From Pedobacter cryoconitis (GTDB taxonomy: Bacteria; Bacteroidota; Bacteroidia; Sphingobacteriales; Sphingobacteriaceae), in assembly GCF_003259615.1 (NCBI RefSeq), contig NZ_QLLR01000001.1:313922-377921 (forward strand): 64,000 nucleotides of DNA. Reading direction: 5' to 3'. The number at the start of each line of letters is the position of its first letter. The first letter of the stretch is position 1. The translations under genes were made by a program, and so were the position numbers. This document shows, piece by piece, positions 47,726 to 64,000 of this stretch. The notes under the pieces were generated by a model. That model was not told the DNA's origin. It ran no database searches and was given only the letters and a program-made list of their open reading frames with translations.

Positions 47726-50572
47726 ATGATTAAAATCTTTACCACATTAGGAACAGCTATGCTCCTCTGTTGCACAATTCAGGCACAGGTTATCAAAGGC
47801 ACAGTACAGGACAAAAACACCAGGGAAACCGTTATAGGAGCCAGCATTTCCGTCAAAGAACACCCCGGAAAAGGTGTAATGGCAGATGCACAGGGCAAGT
47901 TCAGTTTACAACTGCAATCTGGCGAAACCCTGATCGTAAAGATGATCGGGTATAAAGATTTCCAAAAGCAATACCCGGTAATTAAAGACGGACAGCAAAT
48001 CAATATCGCTCTTGAACCAGGCGTTGAGCTGCAAGAAGTTATGGTAACCGCCAGTTTAGCCAATTCAAGAAGTAAAAAAGCAATTGGAACAAACATAGAC
48101 CACATTAATGCAGCAGGAATTGTTGCCACCAGTAACCCTTCCTCACTTGCAGACATTGTTAACGGAAGAATCAGCGGCGCACAGGTTTACAATACCAATG
48201 GTAAAGTGGGCATGCCGATCCGCTTTGACATCCGTTCATCCGCCACCTTCAGTATGGATCGCGACCCCCTGATTTTTATAGATGGTGTACGTTATGGCAG
48301 CAGCAATACCTCAGACATTAACTCTTCGCAGGAAGCCATGAGCGCATTGAACGACTTACCCTTAAACGATATAGAATCTATCGATGTCATTAAAGGCCCG
48401 GCAGCAGCAGCATCTTATGGTGCTGAAGCCGCAAACGGTGTAGTGGTCATTCAAACTAAACGTGGTTTAAACGGCAAAAAAGGAATAGCCATTAATGTAA
48501 AATACACCGCAGGGTTCAGCGAACTGGCCAGAAAATATGATCAGTTCGTAAACAATGACCCTTTGAATGATTTCTTCAGAAAAGGGACAGAACAGCAATT
48601 ATATGCCAATGTTACCTCACAAATTGATGAGAACAACAGTATTTTTCTTTCTGCAAATACCAATAAAAATGCAGGTATCGTTCCTGGAAATCAGGACAAC
48701 AGGCAGACAGTCCGTACCGGATACGACTTCACCAAAGACCGTTTTAAACTCTCTCTTACTGCAGGATATGTTAAAGGGAAATTAAGCATTCCACAATCAG
48801 CTTCAGGACGTGACGACGCGATCTGGAACCTGATGCGTGACCGCACCCCATGGCCATTTATCGCAGAAGAAAGCTGGCGTGCCATTCAAAAAGAATACGA
48901 AAATGACCGCTTTACAGGAAGCCTGAAACTAGCTTATACTTTTCCTTTCGAAATCAAAGCAGAGACATTGGTCGGTTTAGACCTGAACCGGATTGACGGC
49001 TTAAACTATCTTCCTTACGGCTATTTACAAGGCACAAACAATACAGGGAGCAAACAAATCAGTAACCGCCGTAATCAAAACATGAACTGGGATTTTAAAC
49101 TGTCCCGTAACTTTGTATTCAACCCGAAATGGCAGTTAAACCTGTCTTTCCTGTCTCAAACTACCCAGGCATCCGAAAAAGTTACCGGAATCAGTGTGCG
49201 TAATTTCGCTGTTCCAGGCATCAGCAATATCGCTTCCGCAGCAGAAATTTTAGGGACTACAGATAACACCTTTGAAAAGCGTACCCATGGCTTATATGGA
49301 GAAGCATTTCTAAGTTATGATAACAAGTTATTTATCAATGCCGGACTCAGACGTGATGTATCCAATATGATCGGAAGAAATGTAGCCAGCATCTGGTACC
49401 CTACTGTAAGTGTGGCCTACAACGTAGCAGGAATGGACTTCTTGAAAGGCAAAGTAGAAGAATGGAAATTCAGAGCTGCCTATGGAGAATCAGGCCGCTT
49501 ACCTTATCCGGGTGATGCGCAAACTGCTTACCTGGTGGAGAATTCTTCTTTTGGGACTATAGTAAAACCTTTAAGGAAAGGAAATCCGGATATTAAACCA
49601 GAGCGTACAGGTGAGTTTGAAATCGGAACGGATGTAAAAATATTCAATCAGAAATTAAGCTTTACCTATTACAGACAGTATACCCGCGATGCGATCGTTT
49701 ATACCACCTTATTACCTTCCTTAGGTTTTCCATCCAGTTTAAGCGGTGATTACCCTGAAAATATTGGTAAAATACAAGGTCAGGGACTGGAAATTTCTTA
49801 CAACAGCAGAGTCTTTACCAGCGCCAATAAAAAGCACAGCCTGGACATTTATGCCATCTTCAATCAGCAATCTAATAAAGTCATCAATTCGGGCGATAAA
49901 GATATTCTGAGTTCAGTGAACCTGATCAGAGCCGAATTACCAGCATTTGCTTTTTATTCCAATCTTTCCCAAGGCCCGGTATTTGATGCCAAAGGCGTTT
50001 ATACAGGTGCAAAAGAAGGCCCTCTGCAAGAATTAGGCAAACCCTTTCCTACCTACAACGGCTCAGTAGGATTTGGCCTGCAATTGTTTGACAACTTACG
50101 TGTACAATCACTTTTTACTTATTCAAAAGGAGCTAAAGTTTATAATATTTCAGCAAGAAATGTGGCTTCTCAGGGAAATAACTATGAAGCCAAAGAAACT
50201 TTAAAAACGCAATTAGCCTCTCTTACACCAGGCACGGCCGATTATATCTCCACCGCTACTGCCCTCTCAAAAGTTGAAGGTGTCAGAGGTGATTTTATTC
50301 AGAAAGCCGACTTCATCAGGTTAAGTAATTTAACCTTGTCTTATGATCTGGGTGACTGGGCAAAACGCTATACAAAAGGCGTATTGAAACGCTGCGTAAT
50401 CTCAGTAACAGGAAATAACCTTTGGCTGACTACGAACTATGGCGGCGCTGAACCTCAGATTGATTCTCAGGGTGGCAGCAAAAGAACTAAAGGAATCAGC
50501 TATTTATCTTCAGACTGGACAGCTGTTCCGGCTCCGCGCACTTATGCGTTTAGTTTAAATATTGGATTTTAA
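47726..50572 (+). CDS. SusC/RagA-family TonB-linked outer-membrane receptor, probably for a siderophore
   Basis: A 948-residue protein: signal peptide (about 1-20), a CarboxypepD-regulatory-like domain (VIKGTVQDKNTRETVIGASI), plug domain with LQEVMVTAS, NGRISGAQV and the turn GAEAANGVVVIQT, then a 22-stranded barrel ending in an aromatic residue (FSLNIGF). There is no N-terminal STN signalling domain. A SusD-like partner follows 23 bases downstream. SusC proteins import large ligands; the downstream siderophore-interacting flavoprotein and the lack of any glycoside hydrolase suggest iron-siderophore uptake. Shorter SusD and common promoter motif support this; ligand not proven. Confidence 0.9.
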   Translation: MIKIFTTLGTAMLLCCTIQAQVIKGTVQDKNTRETVIGASISVKEHPGKGVMADAQGKFSLQLQSGETLIVKMIGYKDFQKQYPVIKDGQQINIALEPGVELQEVMVTASLANSRSKKAIGTNIDHINAAGIVATSNPSSLADIVNGRISGAQVYNTNGKVGMPIRFDIRSSATFSMDRDPLIFIDGVRYGSSNTSDINSSQEAMSALNDLPLNDIESIDVIKGPAAAASYGAEAANGVVVIQTKRGLNGKKGIAINVKYTAGFSELARKYDQFVNNDPLNDFFRKGTEQQLYANVTSQIDENNSIFLSANTNKNAGIVPGNQDNRQTVRTGYDFTKDRFKLSLTAGYVKGKLSIPQSASGRDDAIWNLMRDRTPWPFIAEESWRAIQKEYENDRFTGSLKLAYTFPFEIKAETLVGLDLNRIDGLNYLPYGYLQGTNNTGSKQISNRRNQNMNWDFKLSRNFVFNPKWQLNLSFLSQTTQASEKVTGISVRNFAVPGISNIASAAEILGTTDNTFEKRTHGLYGEAFLSYDNKLFINAGLRRDVSNMIGRNVASIWYPTVSVAYNVAGMDFLKGKVEEWKFRAAYGESGRLPYPGDAQTAYLVENSSFGTIVKPLRKGNPDIKPERTGEFEIGTDVKIFNQKLSFTYYRQYTRDAIVYTTLLPSLGFPSSLSGDYPENIGKIQGQGLEISYNSRVFTSANKKHSLDIYAIFNQQSNKVINSGDKDILSSVNLIRAELPAFAFYSNLSQGPVFDAKGVYTGAKEGPLQELGKPFPTYNGSVGFGLQLFDNLRVQSLFTYSKGAKVYNISARNVASQGNNYEAKETLKTQLASLTPGTADYISTATALSKVEGVRGDFIQKADFIRLSNLTLSYDLGDWAKRYTKGVLKRCVISVTGNNLWLTTNYGGAEPQIDSQGGSKRTKGISYLSSDWTAVPAPRTYAFSLNIGF

Positions 50573-50595
50573 TACGCATTGTTTATCAAAAGATT

Positions 50596-51834
50596 ATGTT
50601 AAAGAACACAAAATATATTTTTAGAATTAGTACGGTACTTTGCATCGCATTAACCTTTTCATCTTGTAATAAATGGGTAAATGACCCGAAATCACCAGAC
50701 AGTACAGTTGATGAATCACAACTAAACAGCCTGGAAATGTTAGGCCGCATCGATAAAGGAGTTTACGTCAACGGGCCAATCATTGCAGGGGTATGGCGTG
50801 CTGGTGCTACGGCATCCTCAGATTTACTTGTAGCTTCTGGTGCAATTGCAGATGAGATCACCTCTACTGCAGTACCCAATTCACCTTTTTACAAAGAGCT
50901 TGACGAAGATAAACTGAGCCCGGATAACCCTTCTCTTTTTAGTGCATGGTCAAACGCTCAGAACTACAGAGCGCGGGCAGAAGATGCGATTAAACTGGCC
51001 ACACAGCAAAACCCTTCAGAAGAAGATAAGCTGAAAATTAAACAAGGTGCGTTAATCAATGCCCGTTTACACGCAGGTTATGCCTGGATGTTACTGGCAG
51101 ATTATTTCACCGTAAGTGAAGCAAATCATGCTGTTTATGCAGACCATATGCTGGTTACACATGAACAAGCTTATGCTAAAGCACAGCGCTATTGGGAAGA
51201 GGCATTGCCAATAGCCAATGACCAGGAAAAAAGACTGTTACATTCCTTGTTAACCAAATTAGGGATACATACCCAAAACTATGGTTTGGCCGCAGCACAT
51301 ATCAATCAATCTTTTTCAGCAACAGAAAACTTTGCTTTCTTAAATACAGTAGGGACGGTCAGTAATGCCTTCTTCTCTGCTTTAAGTATCAATGTAAGAG
51401 ACGCAGCGGTTGATCCGGCACTGGTTGCCGCATTAATAACAACAGCAGACAAAACACGTAACCCGGTTGTAAAAGCACCTAAAGGACACTGGTCTTTAAC
51501 CTATTTTAAGGAAAGAGATCCGCTGCTGGTTACTGATTTTGATGAAATGCAATTGATCAGAGCGGAATTGATTGTCCGTGGTTTATTAACCGGAAACGCA
51601 ATTGACGTTATCAATACTGTAATTACCAAATATGACGCGACGGGTAAATCAAACCTATCTAAACAGATTACACTTACGCTAACTGACATCGCGGTAATCC
51701 GCAGGATCTACTTATCCTGGAGGGGAACCCGGTTAATTGATTTAAGAAGATTCAATATTGATGGAGATCTGACCCCGGGATTTACCAAAAGAAACTGGCA
51801 CTGGATTGGCGTTCCTGAAATTGAAACCAGGTAA
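50596..51834 (+). CDS. SusD/RagB-like outer-membrane lipoprotein
   Basis: A 412-residue lipoprotein (Cys24 in LTFSSCNKW). The TPR-like helical SusD fold is suggested by NAQNYRARAEDAIKLA, LHAGYAWMLLADYFTVSE and the end RLIDLRRFNID. It is clearly shorter than the usual 500-600 residues, and the loops that bind glycans are expected to be reduced. SusD proteins act as a lid over SusC. The gene follows the receptor gene directly and is followed by a perfect 31-bp inverted repeat. Confidence 0.88.
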   Translation: MLKNTKYIFRISTVLCIALTFSSCNKWVNDPKSPDSTVDESQLNSLEMLGRIDKGVYVNGPIIAGVWRAGATASSDLLVASGAIADEITSTAVPNSPFYKELDEDKLSPDNPSLFSAWSNAQNYRARAEDAIKLATQQNPSEEDKLKIKQGALINARLHAGYAWMLLADYFTVSEANHAVYADHMLVTHEQAYAKAQRYWEEALPIANDQEKRLLHSLLTKLGIHTQNYGLAAAHINQSFSATENFAFLNTVGTVSNAFFSALSINVRDAAVDPALVAALITTADKTRNPVVKAPKGHWSLTYFKERDPLLVTDFDEMQLIRAELIVRGLLTGNAIDVINTVITKYDATGKSNLSKQITLTLTDIAVIRRIYLSWRGTRLIDLRRFNIDGDLTPGFTKRNWHWIGVPEIETR

Positions 51835-51860
51835 GTAACTCCACCTATTGTGGGGTTGTT

Positions 51861-51927
51861 GTGATCTAGGTTGAGAAGGGGTTGGTAAGGCTATTGGCCT
51901 TACCAACCCCTTCTCAACCTAGATCAC
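51861..51927. terminator. Perfect 31-bp inverted repeat after the SusD gene
   Basis: Arms 51861-51891 and 51897-51927 are fully complementary with a 5-base loop. Such length is unusual for an intrinsic terminator. It is followed by only a weak T-run, so it may be a Rho-independent terminator, an mRNA-stabilising structure, or a remnant of a small palindromic element. Confidence 0.6.
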
Positions 51928-52003
51928 TTCCAGTTACTGAACAGTACTTCGTTGTAGGGCAGACTTTTAACTTTATGTAATTCCTTTGTCATAGCTGGCT
52001 TTA

Positions 52004-52028
52004 GTTATTTAGAAAGATTACAAATAAC
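52004..52028. promoter_or_regulatory. Inverted repeat at the flavoprotein promoter, putative shared operator
   Basis: GTTATTT at 52004-52010 is repeated inverted at 52022-52028, with 11 bases between. TTATTTAGA in it recurs at 47641 before the SusC gene. A -7-like TATCTTTA follows at 52030-52037, so the repeat covers the -33 region. Confidence 0.5.
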
Positions 52029-52063
52029 ATATCTTTACCCGTAGTTAACCAGCAAAAGCTACG

Positions 52064-52903
52064 ATGAGTGAAACAAAAAAAGAATTACCTGCCATTGTCC
52101 GCGGAGTATTAGCCGTAAAAAATAAGGTGTATCTCACCCCCCATTATATTCGTATTATCCTGACTGGTGATGATGTGCCTCTTTTTGCAGAAACAACCCC
52201 GGGGATTAACAATAAAATCTTTATCCCTCCTGCAGGAGTTAACGAAATTCATTTCCCCGATTTCGACTATAATACCGGAGAATGGTTTCCTGCACCAGAA
52301 CATTTAAAGCCAGTTATCCGGACTTATACGCATCGGGCTATTGATGTGGAGAAAAAGGAAATGACAATTGATTTTGTTGCACATGGAGACAGCGGGCCTG
52401 CCTCTGCATGGGCTATTCACGCTAAACCAGGAGATATTCTGGGCATCCTGATGAAAGCAAAAGAGTCAGTAATTTATCCAAAAGCAGATTGGTATTTACT
52501 GGCTGCAGATGCGACCGGAATACCAGTTATTGCCACTATCCTGGAAACCCTTCCCTCTACTGCAACCGGGGTGGCCTATATTGAAATACCCACCAAAGAA
52601 GACGAGCAGGAATTAAAAACTGACGCAAACATTCAGATCAACTGGATTTACAACGAACATCCTGGAGAAAACACGCTTTTGGCCGATGCTGTACGTACCG
52701 CAAAAATACCCGGGCAGCATAACACTACGCGTTTTGGTTATGCAGCGGCTGAATTTTCAACCGTAAAAGACATCCGCCAATTTTTGCGCAAAGAACAAAA
52801 TTGGGATCAAAGTGAATTATATGCTTACTCTTACTGGAAATTCGGAGCAAGTGAGGATGGTTCAGTCAAAGCACGCCGCGCAGAGCATCACGAAGAAAAG
52901 TAA
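52064..52903 (+). CDS. Siderophore-interacting protein, FAD/NAD(P)H-dependent ferric reductase family
   Basis: A 279-residue flavoprotein of the SIP family (ViuB/YqjH type). The FAD-binding pattern RTYTHRAID at about 90-98 and FVAHGDSGPASAWAIHAKPGD match the family, and a C-terminal NAD-type domain ends in AYSYWKFGASEDG. It reduces Fe3+-siderophore in the cytoplasm, releasing iron. It follows the SusCD pair by 230 bases with its own promoter, which shares the TTATTTAGA motif, so the two units probably form one iron-regulated system. Confidence 0.88.
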   Translation: MSETKKELPAIVRGVLAVKNKVYLTPHYIRIILTGDDVPLFAETTPGINNKIFIPPAGVNEIHFPDFDYNTGEWFPAPEHLKPVIRTYTHRAIDVEKKEMTIDFVAHGDSGPASAWAIHAKPGDILGILMKAKESVIYPKADWYLLAADATGIPVIATILETLPSTATGVAYIEIPTKEDEQELKTDANIQINWIYNEHPGENTLLADAVRTAKIPGQHNTTRFGYAAAEFSTVKDIRQFLRKEQNWDQSELYAYSYWKFGASEDGSVKARRAEHHEEK

Positions 52904-52975: not shown

Positions 52976-54172
52976 ATGAAGAACAAGTTTTTTTATATGA
53001 TCCTCGCTGTCCTGTATGGACAGTTTTCTTTCGCACAAACCCCAAAACTATTTTTAATTAATGCCGATCAGCTTAAGGCGAAGAAAGAAGCTTATCAGCA
53101 AAAAGATCAGGCAATCAAACCTTTGGTAGATCAGGTCATTCGCAAGGCAGATGCTTTCCTGGCCGTAAAGCCAAAATCTGTGATGGATAAATCATCGACC
53201 CCGCCAAGCGGATCAAAACATGACTATATGAGTCAGGCACCTTATTTCTGGCCTGATCCTTCTAAAGCAGACGGAACTCCTTATATCAGAAAAGATGGCG
53301 AACGTAATCCTGCTATCCATAAAATAACCGACGCTGTATTTTTGCATGGCCTCACTGACCAGTGTAAATTCCTTTCACTCGCCTATTACTTTACAGGACA
53401 GGAAAAGTATGCTTTAAAAGCCAGTGAATTGCTGAATGTCTGGTTCATAGCACCTGAAACCAAGATGAATCCTAACCTGAATTACGCACAAGCTATACCA
53501 GGCGTGAACGATGGCAGAGGTATTGGTATTATTGAAAGTCGTTCCTTAGTGGAATTAGCTGACTGGATGGGTCTTCTGGCCAGCTCAAAATCAATCACAG
53601 CAATACAAACTGAAGGGATTAAAACCTGGTACAAACAATATCTTGACTGGTTATCAAACAGCAAAAACGGAAAAGATGAACATAAATCCAAAAATAACCA
53701 CGGCACGATTTACGATACTCAGATAGTTTCCTTTGCTTTATTTACAGACCAGAAGGAACTGGCAAAAAAGGCATTGACAGCAAGTCTGGAAAGAATAGCG
53801 GTGCAGATTACTCCTGAAGGAGAACAGCCGCTGGAACTCGCCAGAACAAAAGCTTACAGTTATAGTACGATGAATCTGAACGACGGCTGGTTTAACCTCG
53901 CCTTGCTCGGAAAACATGCTGGCGTTGAGGTCTGGAATTATCAGACTTCAGATGGAAGAAGCATACATAAAGCACTGGACTGGTTAATTCCATACGGGAT
54001 GGATGAAAAGGCGAAAGACCGCAAACAAATCATTCCATACAATACCAGTGAGTTGTACAGATTGCTGACACTGGCAGGTACAGCCTACAAAAATGAAGCT
54101 TATTTCAAACAAGCTGCTGCGCTTCCAAAGGATAAGGATACGCAGTTAACTGACCTGCTTTACAAGCCATAA
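52976..54172 (+). CDS. Alginate-lyase-superfamily polysaccharide lyase, PL38-like
   Basis: A 398-residue exported protein (signal 1-20, GQFSFAQ). The alginate_lyase domain shows GSKHDYMSQAPYFWPDP, then YAQAIPGVNDGRGIGIIESR and NNHGTIYDTQ, the pattern of the alpha/alpha-barrel lyases now placed in PL38, reported to act on glucuronan or alginate. It starts 2 bases after a strong inverted repeat and converges on the minus-strand polysaccharide locus, with which it shares a terminator. It probably helps to cut uronate chains for that locus. Substrate not certain. Confidence 0.85.
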   Translation: MKNKFFYMILAVLYGQFSFAQTPKLFLINADQLKAKKEAYQQKDQAIKPLVDQVIRKADAFLAVKPKSVMDKSSTPPSGSKHDYMSQAPYFWPDPSKADGTPYIRKDGERNPAIHKITDAVFLHGLTDQCKFLSLAYYFTGQEKYALKASELLNVWFIAPETKMNPNLNYAQAIPGVNDGRGIGIIESRSLVELADWMGLLASSKSITAIQTEGIKTWYKQYLDWLSNSKNGKDEHKSKNNHGTIYDTQIVSFALFTDQKELAKKALTASLERIAVQITPEGEQPLELARTKAYSYSTMNLNDGWFNLALLGKHAGVEVWNYQTSDGRSIHKALDWLIPYGMDEKAKDRKQIIPYNTSELYRLLTLAGTAYKNEAYFKQAAALPKDKDTQLTDLLYKP

Positions 54173-54180
54173 ACTGTAAA

Positions 54181-54213
54181 AAAAGCCTTGATCTTCGTTA
54201 GATCAAGGCTTTT
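54181..54213. terminator. Strong terminator between the lyase and DUF2264 genes
   Basis: A 14-bp stem (54181-54194 with 54200-54213, core AAAAGCCTTGATCT) with a 5-base loop is followed by a long T-run. It can serve both converging transcripts. Confidence 0.85.
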
Positions 54214-54217
54214 TTTT

Positions 54218-55483
54218 TTAATATTCTACTTTATAATCCTTGACGACTTCCTGCCCTGTCCATGCTTTTAAAGAAGTCCATGGAGCTGCAGGCCCTGTCC
54301 AGAATTCATTGTCTGCGGGAAGTCCAAGCGTCAAAAAGCCTAAAGTTGCCATATATAAACTTCCTGTAGAAGTATAATAATCTGCAATAGCAGGCTGATG
54401 CCCGTTAAAGCCTAAGACCAGCCATCCTTTATCATCAAAATTCTGATCCCCTGCAAACATATTCTGAATCACTTTGGTTAATCCGCAACGAACCTGCGCG
54501 GGCTTCACATAAGCTGGCAGTTTCTCCAGTAACGCGGTTTGGGTCAGTGCTTGAAATGCCGCTGTCCGGTAAGTAACAGACCGTCCGTAAGCAGGATAAG
54601 TACCCTCAGGAGAGATAATTCTTTCCAGATACTCAGAATATCTGACCATTCGCTTTAACGCCTGATCGTAATCACTTACCGGAGCTTTTTTATGATCAGC
54701 CAGGATTTTTTCAAGATCTACCAGCATGGTATGAATCACATAAGAATTATAATAATCCATACTGAATTTTTCACCATCACTATACCAGCTGTCACCTACA
54801 TACCACTCTTTCATTTTATTAACCGCAAACTGAACCCTTGCAGGGTCATACTGCTCGCCAATACTCAACAAAAACCCTTCTGTTAAACCGGAGAATAAAA
54901 GCCAGTTATTATAAGCTCCGCTCCTGTTGCGCAACGACTTAAACTCTTCCACGAAACGTGCCTTGGTTTCCTGGTCTAAAGGTTCCCATAAAGCCTTTGG
55001 CGCACGAATAAATGCCTGGGCCACATAAGCCGCATCTACAATCGGCTGACCTTCAGTTCTGAAATTCAGATAGTCAGGACTCTTAGGGTTTACAGCGTTC
55101 TTTAACCCCTTTAAAAGCAAGGTTCTCATTTCTTTGCGCATTTTTCCTTCCTCAGTACGGTCATCAGGCAGTGCCAGCCAGGGCGCTATGCCTGCCATTG
55201 TTCTGCCTACCGCTTCCAGATAAGTCACACTTTTGAGGTTTAAAGCATATTTAGGCCCTGTTTCTAAAGGCATTTTCTTTTTTAACGTTTCATTAGCCAG
55301 GTTATAAACTACCGGGTAAGAAATCTTGTATAGTGCTTTGACCCAAACTTGTCTGTCTTGTTCACCTGTAGCAATTTTGCCTTTTTGCCGTTGCTGTGCA
55401 GACGCAGAAAAAACAAGCAGGAAAGACAAGAGCAATAGCGCTTTTGTACGGAAAGAAATCATAAGGTTATATTGGTTAATCAT
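54218..55483 (-). CDS. Exported DUF2264-domain protein, possibly a GH154-type glucuronidase
   Basis: A 421-residue protein with a signal peptide; ATG 55483 abuts the stop of the GH88 gene, and a second ATG at 55462 gives a shorter, more typical leader (MISFRTKALLLLSFLLVFSA). The DUF2264 signature is seen in YLEAVGRTMAGIAPWLALPDD and the later GDSWYSDGEKFSMDYYNSYV. Members of this alpha/alpha-barrel family have been placed in GH154 with beta-glucuronidase activity, which I recall but cannot check here. Last gene of the polysaccharide operon; it ends at a shared terminator. Confidence 0.82.
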   Translation of the reverse strand: MINQYNLMISFRTKALLLLSFLLVFSASAQQRQKGKIATGEQDRQVWVKALYKISYPVVYNLANETLKKKMPLETGPKYALNLKSVTYLEAVGRTMAGIAPWLALPDDRTEEGKMRKEMRTLLLKGLKNAVNPKSPDYLNFRTEGQPIVDAAYVAQAFIRAPKALWEPLDQETKARFVEEFKSLRNRSGAYNNWLLFSGLTEGFLLSIGEQYDPARVQFAVNKMKEWYVGDSWYSDGEKFSMDYYNSYVIHTMLVDLEKILADHKKAPVSDYDQALKRMVRYSEYLERIISPEGTYPAYGRSVTYRTAAFQALTQTALLEKLPAYVKPAQVRCGLTKVIQNMFAGDQNFDDKGWLVLGFNGHQPAIADYYTSTGSLYMATLGFLTLGLPADNEFWTGPAAPWTSLKAWTGQEVVKDYKVEY

Positions 55484-56689
55484 TTACAAATACCACTTTT
55501 TATATCTTCCTAAAGCCTCCAGGAAGTAATAATCAGCATAAACTAAAGGTACATCAATTTCACTGTTCAAAGGAAGCGCACCTGTACTATGCAGCAATAA
55601 AAAGCCGCCGTTTTCGCCCAGTTTAGCGCGGTATACCGGAGTAGACAGAGATCTGATCATGGTTTCTGCTGAAGCTATAAATTCCGTTTTCTCTGCACCT
55701 GCCGGAGTATACTGTGCCAGCTCCAATAAAGCTGATGCAGTGATGGCTCCTGCAGAAGCATCACGCTCCGCATAAGGGATTTTTGGGGCATCAAAATCCC
55801 AGAAAGGGATTTTATCAGCAGGCAGGTTGGGATGATTCAGGATAAAATGGGCAATCCCTTTTGCCTGATCCAGGTATTTCTGATCTTTAGTATCGCGGTA
55901 CATCATCGTATATCCGTACAATGCCCAGGCTTGTCCGCGTGCCCATGCAGAACAATCAGCCGCTCCCTGCCAGGTCGCTTTGCGGTTAACTTTTCCTGTC
56001 GTCAAATCATAATCTACTACATGATAAGAGCTGAAATCAGGTCTGAAATGATTCTTTAAAGCCGTATTGGCATGTTTAACGGAAATCTCTTTATATTTCG
56101 CATCCCCTCCGTTATCACTTACCCAATTCAACATTTCCAGGTTCATCATATTGTCTATGATCACCGGACATTTCCAGTATTTATTTTTATCCCACGACTG
56201 GATAGATTCAATTGCCGGACGGTAACGTTTAGCGAGTGAAGCAGCCGACTTGTCGATAATTATCTTATAAGCAGGATCTTTGGTAAGGCGGTAGGCATTC
56301 CCAAAACTGCAGAACATCATAAATCCAAGGTCATGATTACCACTGTAATGCTGGTTTGGTTCAATAACTTTTAATGCTTTTTCAGCCGTCTTTTTCACCG
56401 CTGCATCTTTAGTTTGTTCATAGATATACCATAATGAACCGCTATAAAAACCGCTGCACCACCATTTTATATCGTAGGCAACCAGTTTATTGGTTTTAGC
56501 ATCATAACTCTGTGGCGTTAAGCCAGCAGGGATGTTCTTGTCCAGAACTTTATATTGTTTTACAGCAAAATTAAACTGTTCATCAATTAATTGCTTCATA
56601 TTTTGTAATTGTGTCCCTGATTTCTGCGCAAAAGAGGCAGATCCCGCCAGTAAGAGTAGTCCTGCAATTAAATTGATTTTCTTCTTCAT
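55484..56689 (-). CDS. GH88 unsaturated glucuronyl hydrolase
   Basis: A 401-residue exported protein (signal 1-21, SASFAQ). The catalytic pair is visible as Asp120 in NHDLGFMMF and Asp179 in IIDNMMNLEML, the positions equivalent to Asp88 and Asp149 of Bacillus UGL. GH88 enzymes remove the 4,5-unsaturated uronate that a polysaccharide lyase leaves at the non-reducing end. It follows the PL8 gene by 31 bases, so it removes the product of that enzyme. Confidence 0.93.
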   Translation of the reverse strand: MKKKINLIAGLLLLAGSASFAQKSGTQLQNMKQLIDEQFNFAVKQYKVLDKNIPAGLTPQSYDAKTNKLVAYDIKWWCSGFYSGSLWYIYEQTKDAAVKKTAEKALKVIEPNQHYSGNHDLGFMMFCSFGNAYRLTKDPAYKIIIDKSAASLAKRYRPAIESIQSWDKNKYWKCPVIIDNMMNLEMLNWVSDNGGDAKYKEISVKHANTALKNHFRPDFSSYHVVDYDLTTGKVNRKATWQGAADCSAWARGQAWALYGYTMMYRDTKDQKYLDQAKGIAHFILNHPNLPADKIPFWDFDAPKIPYAERDASAGAITASALLELAQYTPAGAEKTEFIASAETMIRSLSTPVYRAKLGENGGFLLLHSTGALPLNSEIDVPLVYADYYFLEALGRYKKWYL

Positions 56690-56720
56690 CTTATTTTTGT
56701 TTTTACTTAATCATTTATCT

Positions 56721-58811
56721 TTAATTATGTCCAGAGCTTAAACGATTGCTAACTGTAGCTCCCCGCTGTGCGCCAACTGGTAAAACACAATTCAATTTCT
56801 TTACCTCTTTTAATCCGGGTAATTTCAATTCAAGCTGTATAACCGTATTTTCCTGCGTTGGATCTGCCACATTGATAATCGGATTTTCCGTATGTAAACC
56901 CTGAATCAGGATCGTACAAGCCTTATCAGCCTTAACGCTGAAATCTCCAGCCGAAAACACGCCATCTTTGTAAAAAACCAATTGTAAAAGATCCAGCACC
57001 TTGTGTTCTACAACTTGTAAATCTGCCGTATTGCTTAAAATCCTGATCATGGATATATTATAACTCCGCATTGCATTTGCATCCTTTAAGCCCGGAACCA
57101 CTATATATTCATAATGTCCGGCCGAAGGTTTAACCCCATGACTTAAAGAAAGCTGAAATACTTTTCCGCTTATTTCTTCTTTTGACTGAGACTGATTGAT
57201 CCGGTACCAGCTCCCTTTTTGTAATTGATCACTCACAATAAAGGCACCTCCATCAGGAAGGAAATAACCAATATGGTCATGCCATACCCACCAAGGCGCA
57301 GCATTCGCTTTATCCAAAACAACGTCTCCCTTTAACCAGCTCTGATTTAATGTAGTCTTCACTTCTTCCGCAGCGTCACTTTTGATTCCAGCACCCAAAC
57401 ACACCACCTCTTTATCAAAAAAGAACCATGCTTTTTTAGCCTGTACACCATCAATATCCTGCGCATAAACAGACAAACCATATAAACCATTGCTCACCCC
57501 TCCAACAAAAGCAGTTGTTCCGGGAATCCCCCAATCCTGCTTAATCGTAGCTCCTTCATCATTTGAATAATCCCTGCTGGTTGTTCCCGGAACTTTATCC
57601 CATTCCCAAACAGGCATTACATTTGCATATTCATCACCACGAACCTGGATATTTGTTGCGCCATCTGCCAGAAATTTGCCCAGTATATTTTCATTATTTC
57701 CTCTTTCCGTTCTCAATGTTCTGGACGAAGCAGTCTGCACACTAAAAGTATATTCAGGACGGACGTGTAAAGTGTATCCGCTTTTCCAATACACCCTGTT
57801 ACCCGGTATAATCCCATAAGAAGCAGGTACGGCTATCGCCATCCGGTTTGCCGCCGCATCCCAATAAGCCGTATTTTCCGGGTTCAAAACTTTAATCTTA
57901 GCGATCAATCCTCCAAAAACCCCTTTTAAAGAATCTCTTCTGCTGATTCCGCGGCCACGCACATTAAAATCAAAGAAACTCCCGCGGATAGTCCTGAAAA
58001 AAGTATCCTTCAGATAAGTCATCAGTATAGTCAGCTGACCGGCAGGCATGGCATAAGCAGTACCTCTCAAATAGAAAGCTGCATTCACAGAATTGCTGGC
58101 AAACACAGTCCCATAACTGCCAATTGCTTGCTGTTTTCCATGTTGAAAGTAACTGTTATCTACCTGCACCCCTTCCTTGCCATCCGTAATCGAAACAGGT
58201 TCAAACAGATATTTTGAAGCAGAATCCAGTGTAGTTTTACGCTCGGTTAAACAAGCACGGTATAAATAATGTAAAGCCTCATCCGAAGTATTTGCTCCAT
58301 CACCAGTCTTTAATTTCCTGATCATCCTGGCAATTAAAGCTTGTTCCAAATTTGCTGGCAAAGGAGTTTTTCCATAGCGCATCAGGATCAGTATTTCACC
58401 AATCGTCTTCGGATAAAAGATATCATTGTACCACCAGTTTTTGTTTTTAGGATTCAGTTTAAGCCAATGCTGAAGTGACCTGACCACACCATCATAAGCC
58501 TTTGCATCACCATACACTTGATGATTTGCCCCACTATAAGCAATCGCAATCCCTTTAATCCTTTGCAAAGGATCGTAATCCGGATTCGCATAATTGATAT
58601 CCGGCCAGCTGCCATCTTCTTTTAAACCAGCAAGATCAGACTGCACCTTAGCATCCGGAGAACCGCCTTGCAAATCAGCATTGATCCGCCCCATAATTGT
58701 CCTGTAAGGAACGGGAATCTCCTGAGCAATGGACAAACTTCCACTGAAACAAACCAGCAGCGCACTGCATAAACTAAACTGAACAGCAACCCTATTTATA
58801 AACCCTGACAT
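56721..58811 (-). CDS. PL8 polysaccharide lyase, chondroitinase AC/hyaluronate lyase type
   Basis: A 696-residue exported lyase (signal about 1-29). The alpha/alpha barrel carries the catalytic residues Asn174 (GANTSDEA), His224 and Tyr233 (QHGKQQAIGSYG), Arg287 and Arg291 (RGRGISR) and Glu369/Asn372 (TERGNNEN); these match the Pedobacter heparinus chondroitinase AC set (Asn175, His225, Tyr234, Arg288, Arg292, Glu371, Asn374) with only a one- or two-residue shift. The super-sandwich domains follow (GDEYANVMPVWEWDKVPGTT). It overlaps the GH16 gene by 20 bases. Substrates of this subtype are chondroitin and hyaluronan; length argues against xanthan lyase. Confidence 0.92.
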   Translation of the reverse strand: MSGFINRVAVQFSLCSALLVCFSGSLSIAQEIPVPYRTIMGRINADLQGGSPDAKVQSDLAGLKEDGSWPDINYANPDYDPLQRIKGIAIAYSGANHQVYGDAKAYDGVVRSLQHWLKLNPKNKNWWYNDIFYPKTIGEILILMRYGKTPLPANLEQALIARMIRKLKTGDGANTSDEALHYLYRACLTERKTTLDSASKYLFEPVSITDGKEGVQVDNSYFQHGKQQAIGSYGTVFASNSVNAAFYLRGTAYAMPAGQLTILMTYLKDTFFRTIRGSFFDFNVRGRGISRRDSLKGVFGGLIAKIKVLNPENTAYWDAAANRMAIAVPASYGIIPGNRVYWKSGYTLHVRPEYTFSVQTASSRTLRTERGNNENILGKFLADGATNIQVRGDEYANVMPVWEWDKVPGTTSRDYSNDEGATIKQDWGIPGTTAFVGGVSNGLYGLSVYAQDIDGVQAKKAWFFFDKEVVCLGAGIKSDAAEEVKTTLNQSWLKGDVVLDKANAAPWWVWHDHIGYFLPDGGAFIVSDQLQKGSWYRINQSQSKEEISGKVFQLSLSHGVKPSAGHYEYIVVPGLKDANAMRSYNISMIRILSNTADLQVVEHKVLDLLQLVFYKDGVFSAGDFSVKADKACTILIQGLHTENPIINVADPTQENTVIQLELKLPGLKEVKKLNCVLPVGAQRGATVSNRLSSGHN

Positions 58812-59574
58812 AATCCACGTAATATTTTAAAGGTAAAATGTGTTCATCCAGCGGCCCTCCTAAAGTACCTTCCCTGCCCAATGCCAGATTTAACAGCAGA
58901 TAAAAAGGCTTTTTAAAACTCTTCCCCGGATCATAAGCAGCCTTTTTATAATCAAATACAAAATACTTCAAATCATCGTAATAAAAGGAAATACCTCTCT
59001 TATCCCACTCTGCCGCATAAATATGATAGTCCTCATTGGGTGCCCCTACCACCGGTTTCTCACCCACATAATGATATTTAGCCGCGGAATCTGCATAATG
59101 AACCGTTCCATAAACCTGCGTTGAATCCTTACCTACATACTCCAGAATATCAATTTCCCCGCAGTTTGGCCATTTTACCTGCTGCCGGTTTTCACCTAAC
59201 ATCCAGATGGCGGGCCAGCTCCCCACACCTTTAGGAACTTTGGCCCGCACTTCTACCCTACCGTATCTAAAATGCTTTTTACCCAAAGTGATTAAACTCG
59301 CTGAAGTATATTCCGAACCTTTATAATCTTCTTTTCTGGCTTCAATCACTAAGTTTCCATTTTCCACCCTTGCATTCTCCAACCTTTTTGAAGTATAATA
59401 CTGTGGTTCTTGATTCCGCACCAACCCCACTTCATAAGTCCATTTGGTACTATCAGGAAGCCCCTGTTCACTAAACTCATCCGAAAAAACAAGTTTACGT
59501 TTCTTGATTTCCTGGCTGGTTGCTGCCAGGTTTACCCCCAGCAGCAACAAGACAACTAATTGATATCCCTTCAT
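58792..59574 (-). CDS. GH16 glycoside hydrolase, beta-1,3-glucanase type
   Basis: A 260-residue protein with a signal peptide (ending AATSQ). The active-site motif E-x-D-x-x-E is present as Glu140-Ile-Asp142-Ile-Leu-Glu145 (CGEIDILEYVG), with WPAIWMLGE just before. This form is common in laminarinases (GH16_3). The presence of a GH16 in a PL8/GH88 operon is unusual. The stop overlaps the PL8 start and the start abuts the SusD stop, so translation is tightly linked. Confidence 0.9.
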   Translation of the reverse strand: MKGYQLVVLLLLGVNLAATSQEIKKRKLVFSDEFSEQGLPDSTKWTYEVGLVRNQEPQYYTSKRLENARVENGNLVIEARKEDYKGSEYTSASLITLGKKHFRYGRVEVRAKVPKGVGSWPAIWMLGENRQQVKWPNCGEIDILEYVGKDSTQVYGTVHYADSAAKYHYVGEKPVVGAPNEDYHIYAAEWDKRGISFYYDDLKYFVFDYKKAAYDPGKSFKKPFYLLLNLALGREGTLGGPLDEHILPLKYYVDYVRVYK

Positions 59575-61335
59575 CTAATTTATCCAGCCAGTATTTTGTT
59601 TCAAATTAGGATTCCGCTCTATTTCTACCTGTGGAACAGGCCAGTTATAAATATAATCCCCTTTAAAAGAATAAGGATAGACCGTATTTCCCCAGATCTG
59701 TTTAACTCCGTTATCGGTATAGAAAACTTTGTCTTTCCAGCTCTTCCAACGCAACTCATCAAAGTAATTAATCCCTTCATTCGGGAATTCTACCCGGCGT
59801 TCATTACGGATACGCTCTGTTAAATCACTCTGACCGCTTACATAAGTCGGCAATCCACTATTTCCCATTTGCAGTAAAGCCGCACCCGCTCTTGCTCTCA
59901 CCTCATTCACTTTTGCAATCGCATCACCAGTAGCACCCAATTGATTTAATGCTTCTGCCCACATCAGCAGTACATCTGCATATCTTAAAATAGGGAAATC
60001 TGTAGGCCCATAAGACCTGTTCAACGTCTCCGAAGCACCCTCATAAACGAATTTGCGGTATAAATAGTAGAAATAACTCTGTGTATCCGTCCGTAAATCA
60101 CCATTTAAAGCAGCCTCTGAACGGTATGGCCATCTCGAAGTTACCGTCGCATTGATCCCGCTATATACACCCACATAGGTAGAATAAGGAGTAATTACGT
60201 TCGCAGCTAACCTTGGATCGCGATTTGCATAAACCTGTAAAATACGTGCCTCATTACCCGAAGGCAGATAAAGACTCATTTTTGCACCCCTGGTTGTTGC
60301 CGCAGCAATTTCAGCTGCCGTCAGGTTATTCCTTAAAAAATAAACCTCCCGCTGCGCCACAGTCAAGGCTGAATAACCAGGTAACACAGCCTCCCAGTTG
60401 AACTTTGAACCATCCGCATTTTCATATAAATCAACCAGGTTTGGCGAAACATGATAAGTATTCCAGCAAGACCCAAAAGAAGACCTTGTACCACAAAAAA
60501 ACTGCGTCGTAGAACCTGCATTCGCCTGCCCAATATTCTGAATAGAGAAAATCATCTCATTACTTTGCTCATTGGCTGTTTTAAATAGCGTGGTGTAATT
60601 GTTGAATAAACCATAGCCCGCATCTTTTACCTTACTAAAATCAGCGGCGGCCAGTGCCCATTTCTGTTGATATAAATAGGCCTTACCGCGCAATGCATAA
60701 GCTGCCCCTTTGGTAATATGACCATAAGAAGCATTACCCGCAGTATACCTGTCCGGAAGATTCGTCTCCGCAATACAAGCAGTCAAATCGGCAATAACCT
60801 GGGTCCAGACCTCATCTTCAGTAGAACGTCCCTTAACTGCTTCATCCGCTAAAAACGGCTCCAGGTAAATAGGTACACCCTTGTACAATTGATTTAACCT
60901 GAAATAATAATAAGCTCTTAAAAATTTAGCTTCTGCTATATATCTGCTCTTTTTCGCATCGGCGGACGGAGACTTCAGCGGAATGTTTTTAATCGCATCA
61001 TTAGCACGCTGAATCCCCTCATACATATTCTTCCAGGTATCACTAAACATGGAATTACCCGTGGTAACTGTTCCTGCCATCAGTACTTCCGAACCACTGG
61101 TTTGCCCGGTAAAGCCAAAACGATCCAACTGGTAAAGTTCCAGACCAGATGCGCCAGAAGTATTAATCCCCAAACGCAAGGCATTGTAAACACCTGTAAT
61201 CCCCAAATCGGTCAGGTTATCAGTCGTCCACATTTTCTCCGCATCCACCGCAGAATAAGGCGCGGTTTCCAATAAGTTTTTTTTACACCCCGATAAAACC
61301 ACCAGGGTTAGTATAATTGATAAAATCTTTCTCAT
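59575..61335 (-). CDS. SusD/RagB-family outer-membrane glycan-binding lipoprotein
   Basis: A 586-residue lipoprotein (Cys17 in LVVLSGCKK), of normal length for SusD. Helical TPR units are visible in YIAEAKFLRAYYYFRLNQLYKGVPI and ALRGKAYLYQQKWALAAADF, and the C-terminal DVLLMWAEALNQLG and VNEVRARAGAALL are family marks. It covers SusC and binds the polysaccharide at the cell surface. The SusC gene precedes it by 11 bases. Confidence 0.94.
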   Translation of the reverse strand: MRKILSIILTLVVLSGCKKNLLETAPYSAVDAEKMWTTDNLTDLGITGVYNALRLGINTSGASGLELYQLDRFGFTGQTSGSEVLMAGTVTTGNSMFSDTWKNMYEGIQRANDAIKNIPLKSPSADAKKSRYIAEAKFLRAYYYFRLNQLYKGVPIYLEPFLADEAVKGRSTEDEVWTQVIADLTACIAETNLPDRYTAGNASYGHITKGAAYALRGKAYLYQQKWALAAADFSKVKDAGYGLFNNYTTLFKTANEQSNEMIFSIQNIGQANAGSTTQFFCGTRSSFGSCWNTYHVSPNLVDLYENADGSKFNWEAVLPGYSALTVAQREVYFLRNNLTAAEIAAATTRGAKMSLYLPSGNEARILQVYANRDPRLAANVITPYSTYVGVYSGINATVTSRWPYRSEAALNGDLRTDTQSYFYYLYRKFVYEGASETLNRSYGPTDFPILRYADVLLMWAEALNQLGATGDAIAKVNEVRARAGAALLQMGNSGLPTYVSGQSDLTERIRNERRVEFPNEGINYFDELRWKSWKDKVFYTDNGVKQIWGNTVYPYSFKGDYIYNWPVPQVEIERNPNLKQNTGWIN

Positions 61336-61346
61336 TTCTTTCTCCC

Positions 61347-64000
61347 TTAAAAAGTAACATTTAAACCTAATGTGTACTGACGCATTGTTGGATAAGCTAC
61401 ACCTGCATACTGTCCACCAGAAACACCAAGCTCAGGATCAAGTCCCGGGAATTTGGTGATTGTAAACAAGTTCTCTCCTGACACATATAACCTAACCCTG
61501 TTCATCCCTGCTTTTTTAGAAATATTGGATGATAGCGTATAACCCAGCTGCAAGTTTTTCAATTTCACATAAGAAGCGTTATACAAATAGAAATCACTGG
61601 CTACCCCCGAATTCTGAACATCGGTCGTGTTTTTAAGCCTTGGATAATGCGCATTGATATTATTTGCCGGATCTGACGGATTTGCTGCATTGTAATAATA
61701 GTGGTCATTGGCAACTAATGTGCTCACTGCATTACCAAGAGATACAATTGAACTGTTGTAACCAGCAGCATTCCAGTAGTATTTCATACCTGCACTACCT
61801 GCCCATAACATCGACAAATCAAAACCTTTGTAAGCAAAATTAAGTTGCAGACCGAAGTTATATTTTGGTGTTGCCGACACATTAGAGAAAGTCTGATCAT
61901 AAGTATTTCCATAAATACCATCTCCGTTGTTATCCGCATAAATCAAATCTCCATAAGTAATATTAGTTTTACCAGCTGCTCCGCCTGTTGGCTGAAAAGT
62001 ATAACCAGCAGACACCATACTTTGCAACCAGGCAAGATCCTGAGGTGTGCGGATCATTCCATCCTTAGGCCCTCCGTTGATGTTCAGGCTTCCGTCGGCA
62101 TTTTTATAAGAACCATTTCCTTTGTAAACGTTATACAGATAGTATTGATTTGCCTGCTGTCCTTCCAGAATACGGGTTATCGTCCCATTAGATACACTGC
62201 CTAAATTTGACGAATAAACCTGGTTACCGTTCGCATCAGTTGTATAACCTTGTTGTAAAGCACCTTTATATTTCTTAACCCGGTTAAAGTTATAGGCGAA
62301 ATTTCCAGACACCCCGTATTTAAATTCACCAGATTTACCATTATAACCCAAAGTCAGCTCGACACCTTTATTAGAGATTTCCGCTATATTTTTGGTGGCC
62401 GCTGTCGCTGTACCTACTGTTAATGGAATCGTTGGGACATATAAAATTCCTTCTGTAAACTTGTTGTATAAATCCACTTCAAAATTAACCGCACCTTTAA
62501 AAAGCGATCCATCCAGCCCCAGATTGGTAACCGTTGTCGTTTCCCATCTTAAATCTCCATTGGCAAACTTCGACTGGATTAACCCGTTAATCGGTAATCC
62601 ATTGAAAGAATAGGGTGTAGAACCATAAACAGCTTTGTAATCATAATTTCCCAGGGAAGCATCAGCATTCATCACGTTGTTACCCGTTTTACCCCAGGAT
62701 GCACGCAGCTTCAGGTTACTTACATAATCGTTCATATTTTTCATGAAAGGCTCCTGAGAAATACGCCATCCTGCAGAGAAAGCAGGAAAGAAACCCCACC
62801 TGTTACCAGGCGCAAATTTGGAAGATCCATCATAACGGAAAACACCTTCCAGTAAGTACTTACTCTGGTAAGCATAGTTTAAACGACCGAAAAAAGAACG
62901 GATCGAATAGTCATAAGCATCCCCGTTGATAGAAGTCATCGTGGTTGCAGAGCCTAAAGTGGTAATAGAGGCATCGATCAAACCTGTCTTGGTGGCATCC
63001 CAATTGTAATAATTGAAATAATTCTGGTTATAGCCCAGTAAAACACCAATATCATGTTTTTCAGCAACTGTGGTATTGTACCTTAAAACGTTATCAATTG
63101 TGGTGCTGTAATTTTTATTAAAAAAATAAGAGGTACTCAACTGGTCGGGTGTAGTGGCTGCAACTTTTAAAGTATTGGTCGCGAAGTTCCATTTTTCGAA
63201 GGTATTGCTAAAATAGTTTTTCTCTTCGAAACGCGTCTGGTAATTGAAACGGGTTTCGAAACTCAATCCTTTATAAATATCAAAGTTTGCGAATACAGTC
63301 GTGTTAAACCTCGACTCCTGATCTTTTCCGCCTGTGCTGTATAAATAAGTAGAAATGTTATTTGCGGTAGCAGACTCTTCAGCAGCTGCCGGAAATCCAT
63401 ATAATCCGTTATAAACCGGGTATACGCCCGGGGTGGTCTGGCGAAGGAAGTTAAAAGCATTTACTGTACTGGCCATCCCAAAATTTTGTAAAGAAGCGAA
63501 AGTCTGTGTACCTAAAGTCAGGAACTTATTGACTTTAGTCTGTAAGTTAATCCTGAGCTGAAAACGATCAGTTCCAGTATTGGCCATCGTCCCCGGATTA
63601 TTTAAATAACCCGCAGAAAGCAAGTACTGCGTGTTTTCTGTTCCACCATTTAATGAAATATTATGCTGCTGAACCAGGTTATGTTCAAAAATTGCTTTTG
63701 CCCAGTCTGTATTCGGATAAGCAACCCTGTTTGGAATTCCCTGTGGGGTCAATCCTTCCGGATCAGCGTTTGCAGCTGTCCACAAAGCTTTAGTGGCATC
63801 TGTATAAACAGGAGTCTGGCCAAGGTTACGGTAGCCTTCATTCACCAGGTCCATATGGGTAATATAGTCGGTCACGAATTTCGGCATGTTAGCGGGTGTA
63901 GCGACAGAGAACATACTGGTATAATTGACACTGAGTTTATTCTTCGTCCCTTTTTTAGTAGTGATCAGAATTACACCGTTTGCAGCTAATGAGCCATAGA
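61347..64000 (-). CDS. SusC/RagA-family TonB-linked receptor, N-terminus outside the window
   Basis: The reading frame is open from 61347 to the right edge; the first visible codons read YGSLAANGVILITTKKGT, the end of the plug domain, so about 150-250 N-terminal residues (signal peptide, CarboxypepD-like domain, part of the plug) are missing. An internal Met at 63914 is not the start. The rest is the beta barrel, ending in GLNVTF with terminal Phe. It imports the oligosaccharides generated at the surface and heads the visible operon. Any regulator lies beyond the edge. Confidence 0.93.
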   Translation of the reverse strand, partial: YGSLAANGVILITTKKGTKNKLSVNYTSMFSVATPANMPKFVTDYITHMDLVNEGYRNLGQTPVYTDATKALWTAANADPEGLTPQGIPNRVAYPNTDWAKAIFEHNLVQQHNISLNGGTENTQYLLSAGYLNNPGTMANTGTDRFQLRINLQTKVNKFLTLGTQTFASLQNFGMASTVNAFNFLRQTTPGVYPVYNGLYGFPAAAEESATANNISTYLYSTGGKDQESRFNTTVFANFDIYKGLSFETRFNYQTRFEEKNYFSNTFEKWNFATNTLKVAATTPDQLSTSYFFNKNYSTTIDNVLRYNTTVAEKHDIGVLLGYNQNYFNYYNWDATKTGLIDASITTLGSATTMTSINGDAYDYSIRSFFGRLNYAYQSKYLLEGVFRYDGSSKFAPGNRWGFFPAFSAGWRISQEPFMKNMNDYVSNLKLRASWGKTGNNVMNADASLGNYDYKAVYGSTPYSFNGLPINGLIQSKFANGDLRWETTTVTNLGLDGSLFKGAVNFEVDLYNKFTEGILYVPTIPLTVGTATAATKNIAEISNKGVELTLGYNGKSGEFKYGVSGNFAYNFNRVKKYKGALQQGYTTDANGNQVYSSNLGSVSNGTITRILEGQQANQYYLYNVYKGNGSYKNADGSLNINGGPKDGMIRTPQDLAWLQSMVSAGYTFQPTGGAAGKTNITYGDLIYADNNGDGIYGNTYDQTFSNVSATPKYNFGLQLNFAYKGFDLSMLWAGSAGMKYYWNAAGYNSSIVSLGNAVSTLVANDHYYYNAANPSDPANNINAHYPRLKNTTDVQNSGVASDFYLYNASYVKLKNLQLGYTLSSNISKKAGMNRVRLYVSGENLFTITKFPGLDPELGVSGGQYAGVAYPTMRQYTLGLNVTF

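Follow-up and report, generated by a model that had tools for sequence, protein, structure and literature searches.

The right end of a 64,000-nucleotide stretch of the Pedobacter cryoconitis genome encodes a polysaccharide utilization locus (PUL), which probably serves the breakdown of an unsulfated polysaccharide whose chain contains beta-linked glucuronate. The stretch (hereafter the window) covers positions 313,922 to 377,921 of contig NZ_QLLR01000001.1 (G000:C3:313922-377921; G### labels genomes, L### labels compared locus stretches and C3 is the contig of the window) in a genome of 6.08 Mb and 84 contigs. Judged from sequence comparisons, a PL8 lyase and a GH16 enzyme would cut the polymer and a DUF2264-type dehydratase together with a GH88 hydrolase would trim the fragments. 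An unsulfated chondroitin- or hyaluronan-like polymer is somewhat more likely as target than another uronoglycan. The initial annotation had regarded this mix of PL8, GH88, GH16, DUF2264 and PL38-like genes as unusual; all of them are present where it had placed them, each with a score above the curated Pfam cut-off:

52976..54172, plus strand: PL38-like protein with alginate-lyase fold, accessory (PF05426, 282.5 bits; nearest solved structures 3nfv and 8bdq)
54218..55483, minus strand: DUF2264 protein (former GH154), predicted beta-D-glucuronate dehydratase (GDH; PF10022, 400.3 bits; 9o4u/9nwf, 575/573 bits)
55484..56689, minus strand: GH88 unsaturated glucuronyl hydrolase (UGL), W240 form (PF07470, 30.3 bits, cut-off 26.6; 3wiw, 340 bits)
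56721..58811, minus strand: PL8 lyase of a sulfatase-free clade (PF08124, PF02278 and PF02884, all above cut-off)
58792..59574, minus strand: GH16 enzyme, predicted endo-hydrolase, nearest to the GH16_3 type (PF00722, 80.8 bits; 3iln, 197 bits)
59575..61335, minus strand: SusD-like glycan-binding lipoprotein (PF07980, 172.8 bits)
61347..64000, minus strand, start outside the window at C3:378585: SusC-like TonB transporter, 1105 amino acids

Read from right to left, the genes for SusC, SusD, GH16, PL8, GH88 and DUF2264 follow each other at distances of 11, 0, -20, 31 and 0 bases, and because the gaps measure only 0-31 bases, apart from the 20 bases shared by GH16 and PL8, these genes were read as a single operon. 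Outside of it, in convergent orientation, lies the PL38-like gene. The SusC/SusD pair is linked to a regulator, as is characteristic for PULs of Bacteroidota: a hybrid two-component regulator (HTCS) of 1374 amino acids (C3:378782-382906) with Reg_prop, HisKA, response regulator and AraC-type domains is encoded divergently, 196 bases from SusC. The whole genome contains one PL8, one DUF2264 and four GH88-family matches.

The closest solved structures to the DUF2264 protein, 9o4u and 9nwf, are deposited as beta-D-glucuronic acid/glucuronate dehydratases and the next one, 8oi4, as beta-galactosidase. Compared with the dehydratase BcGDH of Bacteroides caccae, 248 of 384 aligned positions (65%) are identical, including all ten active-site residues that were compared as well as Y175 and Y401. 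For BcGDH, which originates from a chondroitin PUL, it was reported that ten active-site alanine mutants are inactive and that the enzyme dehydrates the non-reducing-end glucuronate of chondrosine, thereby enabling the action of GH88; the GH154-type dehydratase family is stated to comprise more than 6000 members (PMC12269599). The view that DUF2264 is foreign to glycosaminoglycan (GAG) loci, as held in the initial annotation, is thus not supported. As the active-site residues and the overall identity to BcGDH are kept, DUF2264 and the adjoining GH88 very probably constitute a functional pair. An assignment as beta-glucuronidase or beta-galactosidase was rejected, since no hydrolase activity was found for BcGDH and dehydration is proposed for the family (PMC12269599).

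To place the locus among its relatives, 120 fetched stretches were reduced to 94 distinct PL8 loci, the other 26 duplicating a PL8 already included. Loci with a PL8 more than 50% identical to that of the window (32, the clade relatives) were set against the 62 others. The sample is uneven: it combines same-genus genomes with the top 80 of 82 hits of two short peptide patterns; the stretches extend to at most ~22 kb and several, including L040, L041 and L042, are cut at contig ends, so some absences may be missed presences. Sulfatases were detected with a model built from the set's own sulfatases instead of Pfam. Within the fetched stretches, a sulfatase is encoded in none of the 32 clade relatives versus 38/62 other PL8 loci, a GDH in 26/32 versus 5/62, a GH88 in 31/32 versus 35/62, a GH16 in 6/32 versus 0/62 (7/33 with the window) and a PL38 in 4/32 versus 0/62. 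The clade count for GDH is probably 27/32, when the locus of G085, which stops inside GH88 at a contig end, is joined with the contig piece L176, which opens with a GH88 remainder followed by GDH, KduI and KduD. Four clade loci without GDH are not cut by contig ends; the genomes G025, G078 and G133 hold only a ~40% identical homolog elsewhere, and G116 two short pieces that are 43-44% identical. Of the named loci above 50% identity (n=23), 21 carry the name Pedobacter and two come from metagenome-assembled genomes of Sphingobacteriaceae.

The PL8 lyase itself has P. heparinus chondroitinase AC as top solved match (582 bits, 42.5% identical) and shows the N-terminal helical, super-sandwich and C-terminal domains of the family. 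The residues N175, H225, Y234, R288, E371 and W126/W127, which we take to be the catalytic set of chondroitinase AC, are unchanged in 33/33 clade PL8s and in 39/39 rows compared. The enzyme nevertheless scores below the cut-off of the NCBIfam chondroitinase-AC equivalog NF043001 (702.7 vs 1000 bits). In a tree of 96 rows (IQ-TREE quick mode, with SH-aLRT support only and no bootstrap) the clade of the window (n=33) is split from the rest by a branch with an SH-aLRT value of 100, and P. heparinus chondroitinase AC (1hm2 chain; distance 0 from L071) sits among the sulfatase loci. Tree position and cut-off rule out a plain chondroitinase AC ortholog. Eleven alignment columns, among them K176T, R361Q, T172D and L229Q, distinguish the clade PL8s from the sulfatase-bearing rows. 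These columns are not significantly enriched near the active site (4/11 vs 27/141 comparably conserved columns, p = 0.13), and their position was not used as evidence. Four genomes (G006, G030, G081 and G087) encode one clade PL8 each and a second PL8 that is 41-44% identical to that of the window; the context of the second was viewed for G006 and G030, and in G006 (P. borealis, L097) it is located in a sulfatase locus.

A similar separation is visible in GH88. The window protein barely passes its Pfam model, yet it reaches 340 bits with the solved GH88 3wiw, and D120 and D179, presumably the two catalytic aspartates, are invariant in 15/15 aligned sequences. Position 240 aligns with H210 of the Bacillus UGL and with R235 in the numbering of the Streptococcus chain 2zzr, and we assume it to be a site in contact with the adjacent sugar or the sulfate on it. 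The residue is Trp in 31/31 window-clade proteins (counting the window; L040, whose GH88 is cut off, and L042, where it is missing, were left out), Asn in 20/22 sulfatase loci (Ala and Leu once each), and in other loci His in 9/12 and Asn in 3/12 (L123, cut short, omitted). The Trp was also considered as a marker of a dehydratase partner. This was rejected, as the Sphingobacterium loci L140-L143 with sulfatase and GDH carry Asn; residue 240 tracks the locus type, not GDH. Together with the lack of sulfatases in the clade relatives, the clade-specific residues of PL8 and GH88 support the non-sulfated, acidic, glucuronate-containing target suggested in the initial annotation.

Around the constant PL8-GH88-GDH core the loci vary. 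SusCD is either of the window type (82-99% identical), intermediate (69-78%) or ~26-33% identical, and ahead of PL8 lies GH16, a protein with DUF5017, an enzyme of the GH95 type or none of these (one or two of each Pfam-checked). One clade relative has an additional GH36 and an acetylesterase, another one GH29 and GH35. This suggests that the clade represents a constant glucuronate-removal module for polymers with differing branches. Mainly due to this variation in SusCD and branch-type enzymes the polymer is left unnamed here.

The following pathway may be proposed. SusCD would import fragments of the polymer and the divergent HTCS would probably sense oligosaccharides. PL8 would produce unsaturated (delta-4,5) uronate ends by beta-elimination, and hydrolysis by GH16 would leave saturated ends wherever the exposed sugar is glucuronate. 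DUF2264 would remove water from a saturated terminal glucuronate to yield the unsaturated form, as was shown for its relatives, and GH88 would free the unsaturated uronate as 5-keto-4-deoxyuronate. The family assignments point to KduI, a reductase of the SDR family, a sugar kinase and a KDPG aldolase as the enzymes that would convert it to pyruvate and glyceraldehyde 3-phosphate. Genes for this route were found when the sequence was extended to the right, as the initial annotation had advised: past the HTCS, the minus strand encodes an MFS transporter, a KDPG aldolase family protein, a PfkB kinase, which we read as KDG kinase, the SDR reductase, KduI and a DUF4350-like protein; beyond these, the plus strand carries a regulator of the LacI type. 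Regulator, transporter and a KduI/KdgK/KdgA-type route are hence at hand. KduI passes its NCBIfam equivalog cut-off (417 vs 250 bits). The top model of the MFS transporter is a D-galactonate transporter, with a score under the cut-off of that model. The SDR reductase scores above the cut-off of the subfamily model for D-mannonate oxidoreductase (331 vs 281) and below that of the KduD model (139.8 vs 338.85), for which reason its exact step can only be inferred.

Several findings weigh against the assignment to an unsulfated glucuronate polymer and against the proposed order of steps. The presence or absence of sulfatases tracks one clade and reflects few independent events, and in G030 (P. ghigonis, L152) no sulfatase lies near the second PL8. 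GH95-, GH29-, GH35-, GH36-type or acetylesterase genes in some relatives are unexpected for a plain linear GAG, and no hexosaminidase or amino-sugar gene was noticed in the clade loci, in which not all open frames were scanned. In a class-level survey of 295 genomes (E 1e-80; 21 matches including that of the window) a GH88 match lies within 1.5 kb of just 4 of the 20 other GDH matches, although GH105-type partners would escape this count. The idea that GDH is always paired with GH88 was abandoned on this ground; the GDH-GH88-PL8 block is typical of the window clade and not of all DUF2264 genes. PL8 is present in none of three GDH neighbourhoods viewed more widely, one of which is L199. Finally, a GDH is encoded in most loci that lack GH16, and in L057 and L174 GH16 is present and GDH absent, so that a GH16-to-GDH step is not obligatory.

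The target might instead be no GAG at all. An acidic heteropolysaccharide of microbial or plant origin, decorated with neutral-sugar branches, such as a bacterial exopolysaccharide, a glucuronan-type polymer of fungal walls or an arabinogalactan-like plant glycan, is a serious candidate, although the odds are somewhat against it; PL8 would then be re-specialised and GH16 would cut neutral beta-links. Laminarinases as nearest solved relatives of GH16, the branch-removing enzymes of the GH95, GH29, GH35 and GH36 type and the esterase in relatives, the eleven clade-specific PL8 changes including K176T and R361Q, and the GH88 Trp at a site that touches the next sugar are all consistent with such a glycan. 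Strain names (Leaf216, Leaf250, Leaf41, P. zeae, P. soli, P. frigidisoli) hint, as names only, at plants or soil. Moreover, L199 from another family combines GDH with GH16, GH43-GH16, a LacZ-type GH2, BNR_4 and a PF07470 hydrolase, a gene set that to us looks arabinogalactan-like. However, the GDH is nearest to an enzyme proven on a chondroitin disaccharide mimic and the PL8 keeps the full chondroitinase AC catalytic set. GH95- and GH29-like genes are also found in the sulfatase-bearing PL8 loci L103, L111 and L119 and are thereby compatible with a GAG backbone.

The closest solved relatives of GH16 are laminarinases (3iln), the catalytic ExDxxE at 140-145 is invariant in 7/7 sequences and the WPA...WM signature is present as well. 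The third motif, WPX, is WPN in 6/7 and WPS in 1/7 and falls outside the letters of GH16_3, for which A, K, R, M or L are reported as largely conserved at X, N being listed for GH16_1 (PMC6827312). The motif is not strict, because the solved close relative 3iln has WPD. A search of 144 same-genus genomes (E 1e-60) returned the window's own GH16 and nine at 63-95% identity, the next nine following at 45-50%. All ten members of this clade lie beside PL8, GH88 or a beta-glucuronidase (GUS)-like GH2, and 7/10 adjoin a window-clade PL8. Among the nine next-nearest GH16s a uronate-enzyme partner was found in 0/9 within flanks of 1.5 kb.

Three clade members illustrate these neighbourhoods. L173 has the order SusCD-GH16-GH2, and the GH2 is closest to 5z1a and 3cmg (670 and 669 bits), each of which was deposited as a putative beta-galactosidase; 3CMG was described as the apo form of BfGUS, the B. 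fragilis beta-glucuronidase (PMC6219552). L174 encodes SusCD, a GDPD-type protein, GH16, GH88, KduI, DUF4861 and KduD, without PL8 and GDH. L175 contains SusCD, a DUF5017-like protein, GH16 and a PL8-type lyase of 1261 amino acids that carries CBM96 and a signal for type IX secretion.

Because 10/10 clade members stand beside uronate enzymes, the GH16 probably acts on the same glycan as PL8 and not on a separate beta-glucan. By analogy, a hydrolytic cut that feeds the dehydratase is plausible, since GH16 hyaluronidases (GH16_1) are known from fungi and yield saturated HA2 (PMC6827312, PMC11669647). We tentatively put forward, although it is rather unlikely, that the clade comprises bacterial endo-hydrolases attacking a glucuronate polymer, hyaluronidase- or chondroitinase-like in function and outside the fungal GH16_1, which would make saturated glucuronate ends; two parallel routes would result, from lyase to GH88 and from hydrolase via dehydratase to GH88. 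An unrelated beta-1,3-glucanase that shares the operon by chance and helps to open a wall that contains glucan and surrounds the uronoglycan is doubtful to a similar degree: GH16_3-type glucanases are nearest in sequence and GH16 occurs in just 7/33 loci, however the gene overlaps PL8 and its tight clade is always beside uronate enzymes, even without PL8.

That the locus is an ordinary chondroitin sulfate or hyaluronan locus served by sulfatases encoded elsewhere is improbable: six sulfatase-family matches in the genome (three above 130 bits) and BcPUL25 of B. caccae, which has no chondroitin sulfate sulfatase and for which cooperation with one encoded elsewhere was proposed (PMC12269599), speak for it, but the sulfatase counts of the clade and the comparison set, the separate PL8 clade with its different GH88 residue 240 and the four genomes keeping a second PL8, one of them in a sulfatase locus, argue against it. 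The closest of the six matches in this whole-genome search lies ~83 kb left of the operon. A sulfatase inside or adjoining the locus, as in PULs for sulfated GAGs, is missing, and none was seen from the operon rightward up to C3:400000. The sole heparinase II/III-type match, the only heparinase family type searched, is on another contig. Of the sulfatases or heparinases right beyond the edge, which the initial annotation had named as evidence against its proposal, neither a sulfatase (up to C3:400000) nor a heparinase of the II/III type was observed.

The PL38-like protein, which may belong to the CAZy family PL38, has the PF05426 fold and is similar to 3nfv and 8bdq; the gene is present in the window and 4/32 relatives, all within the six-row PL8 subclade of the window. 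For RiPL38, from a locus with PL8, PL35 and PL38, activity on hyaluronan and weak activity on chondroitin sulfate was reported (PMC13027841). As this enzyme resides in a GAG PUL, the PL38 type is not foreign to such loci, contrary to what had been supposed.

Known systems resemble the locus in parts. BcPUL25 (BcPL35, BcGH88, BcGDH, BcGH109) likewise combines lyase, GH88 and a DUF2264/GH154 dehydratase without a chondroitin sulfate sulfatase in the locus, and its target was judged most likely unsulfated chondroitin; unlike the window it has PL35 in place of PL8 as well as GH109 and peptidases, and no GH16 is mentioned (PMC12269599). The P. heparinus chondroitin sulfate cluster (L071) shares HTCS, SusCD, PL8, GH88 and the PL8 catalytic residues, but it carries a sulfatase, a chondroitinase B type enzyme, a second PL8 and a GH88 with Asn instead of Trp, lacks GDH in the stretch, and its PL8 falls outside the window clade. 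The GAG PUL of Roseihalotalea indica (RiPL8, RiPL35, RiPL38) also unites PL8 and PL38 in a single SusCD locus; it differs in having PL35 and CE19 and a PL38 with an extra domain, and neither GH16 nor GH88 is named for it (PMC13027841). The ulvan dehydratase P29_PDnc primes a terminal uronate for the unsaturated uronyl hydrolase GH105 in a comparable manner, however it is unrelated in sequence and its substrate is a sulfated algal polymer (as told in PMC12269599). The Penicillium GH16 hyaluronidases hydrolyse a uronate polymer with a GH16 fold to saturated HA2 and differ from the nearest-to-GH16_3 window enzyme in belonging to GH16_1 (PMC6827312, PMC11669647). A search of open-access papers found no description of this locus type.

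The unusual enzyme mix is mostly explained; what is left over is a PL8 lineage that is conserved and free of sulfatases, together with a GH16 clade travelling with uronate enzymes. Since a PL8 whose chondroitinase AC residues are all intact can fall into a lineage that lacks sulfatases and is linked to a dehydratase, substrate prediction from PL8 and GH88 alone is misleading, as was also pointed out in PMC12877422. GH88 position 240 and the PL8 changes K176T and R361Q provide simple sequence handles, and a testable role is offered for GH154-type dehydratases.

Some further observations concern these genes and their surroundings. In L173:369-8015 the regulator and the SusC near GH16 are each split into two shorter overlapping or adjoining frames, due to either sequence errors or decay. 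L174:8692-10723 is apparently the chromosomal site of the relatives, with PL8 and GDH gone and GH16, GH88, KduI and KduD kept. By eye, a peptidase-like gene recurs beside the nine next-nearest GH16s. In L177:8748-11274 a GH88-GDH pair, its GH88 with Trp, lies among GH95-like and GH29-like genes in a stretch without PL8; this pair may move as a unit. The sulfatase match at G000:C3:284664-285026 covers only model positions 1-116 of 301 in a frame of 169 amino acids and is possibly a gene remnant. A third type of PL8-GH88 locus without sulfatase in the stretch comprises L114, L108, L110, L118, L122, L125 and L145; its GH88 has His at the position of window residue 240 (9/9 in the set), and L114 is neighboured by GH106, GH28 and GH92 enzymes. 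L115:8852-14497 is perhaps a hyaluronan locus; its PL8 has a transporter-like protein and a fusion of glucosamine-6-phosphate isomerase and PIG-L as neighbours. Beside the locus of the window (47726-52903) a TonB receptor, a 412-amino-acid protein without Pfam match and a siderophore-interacting protein are encoded, perhaps an iron-uptake set, and genes sized like the latter two proteins adjoin the locus in L034, L035, L036, L062 and L064.

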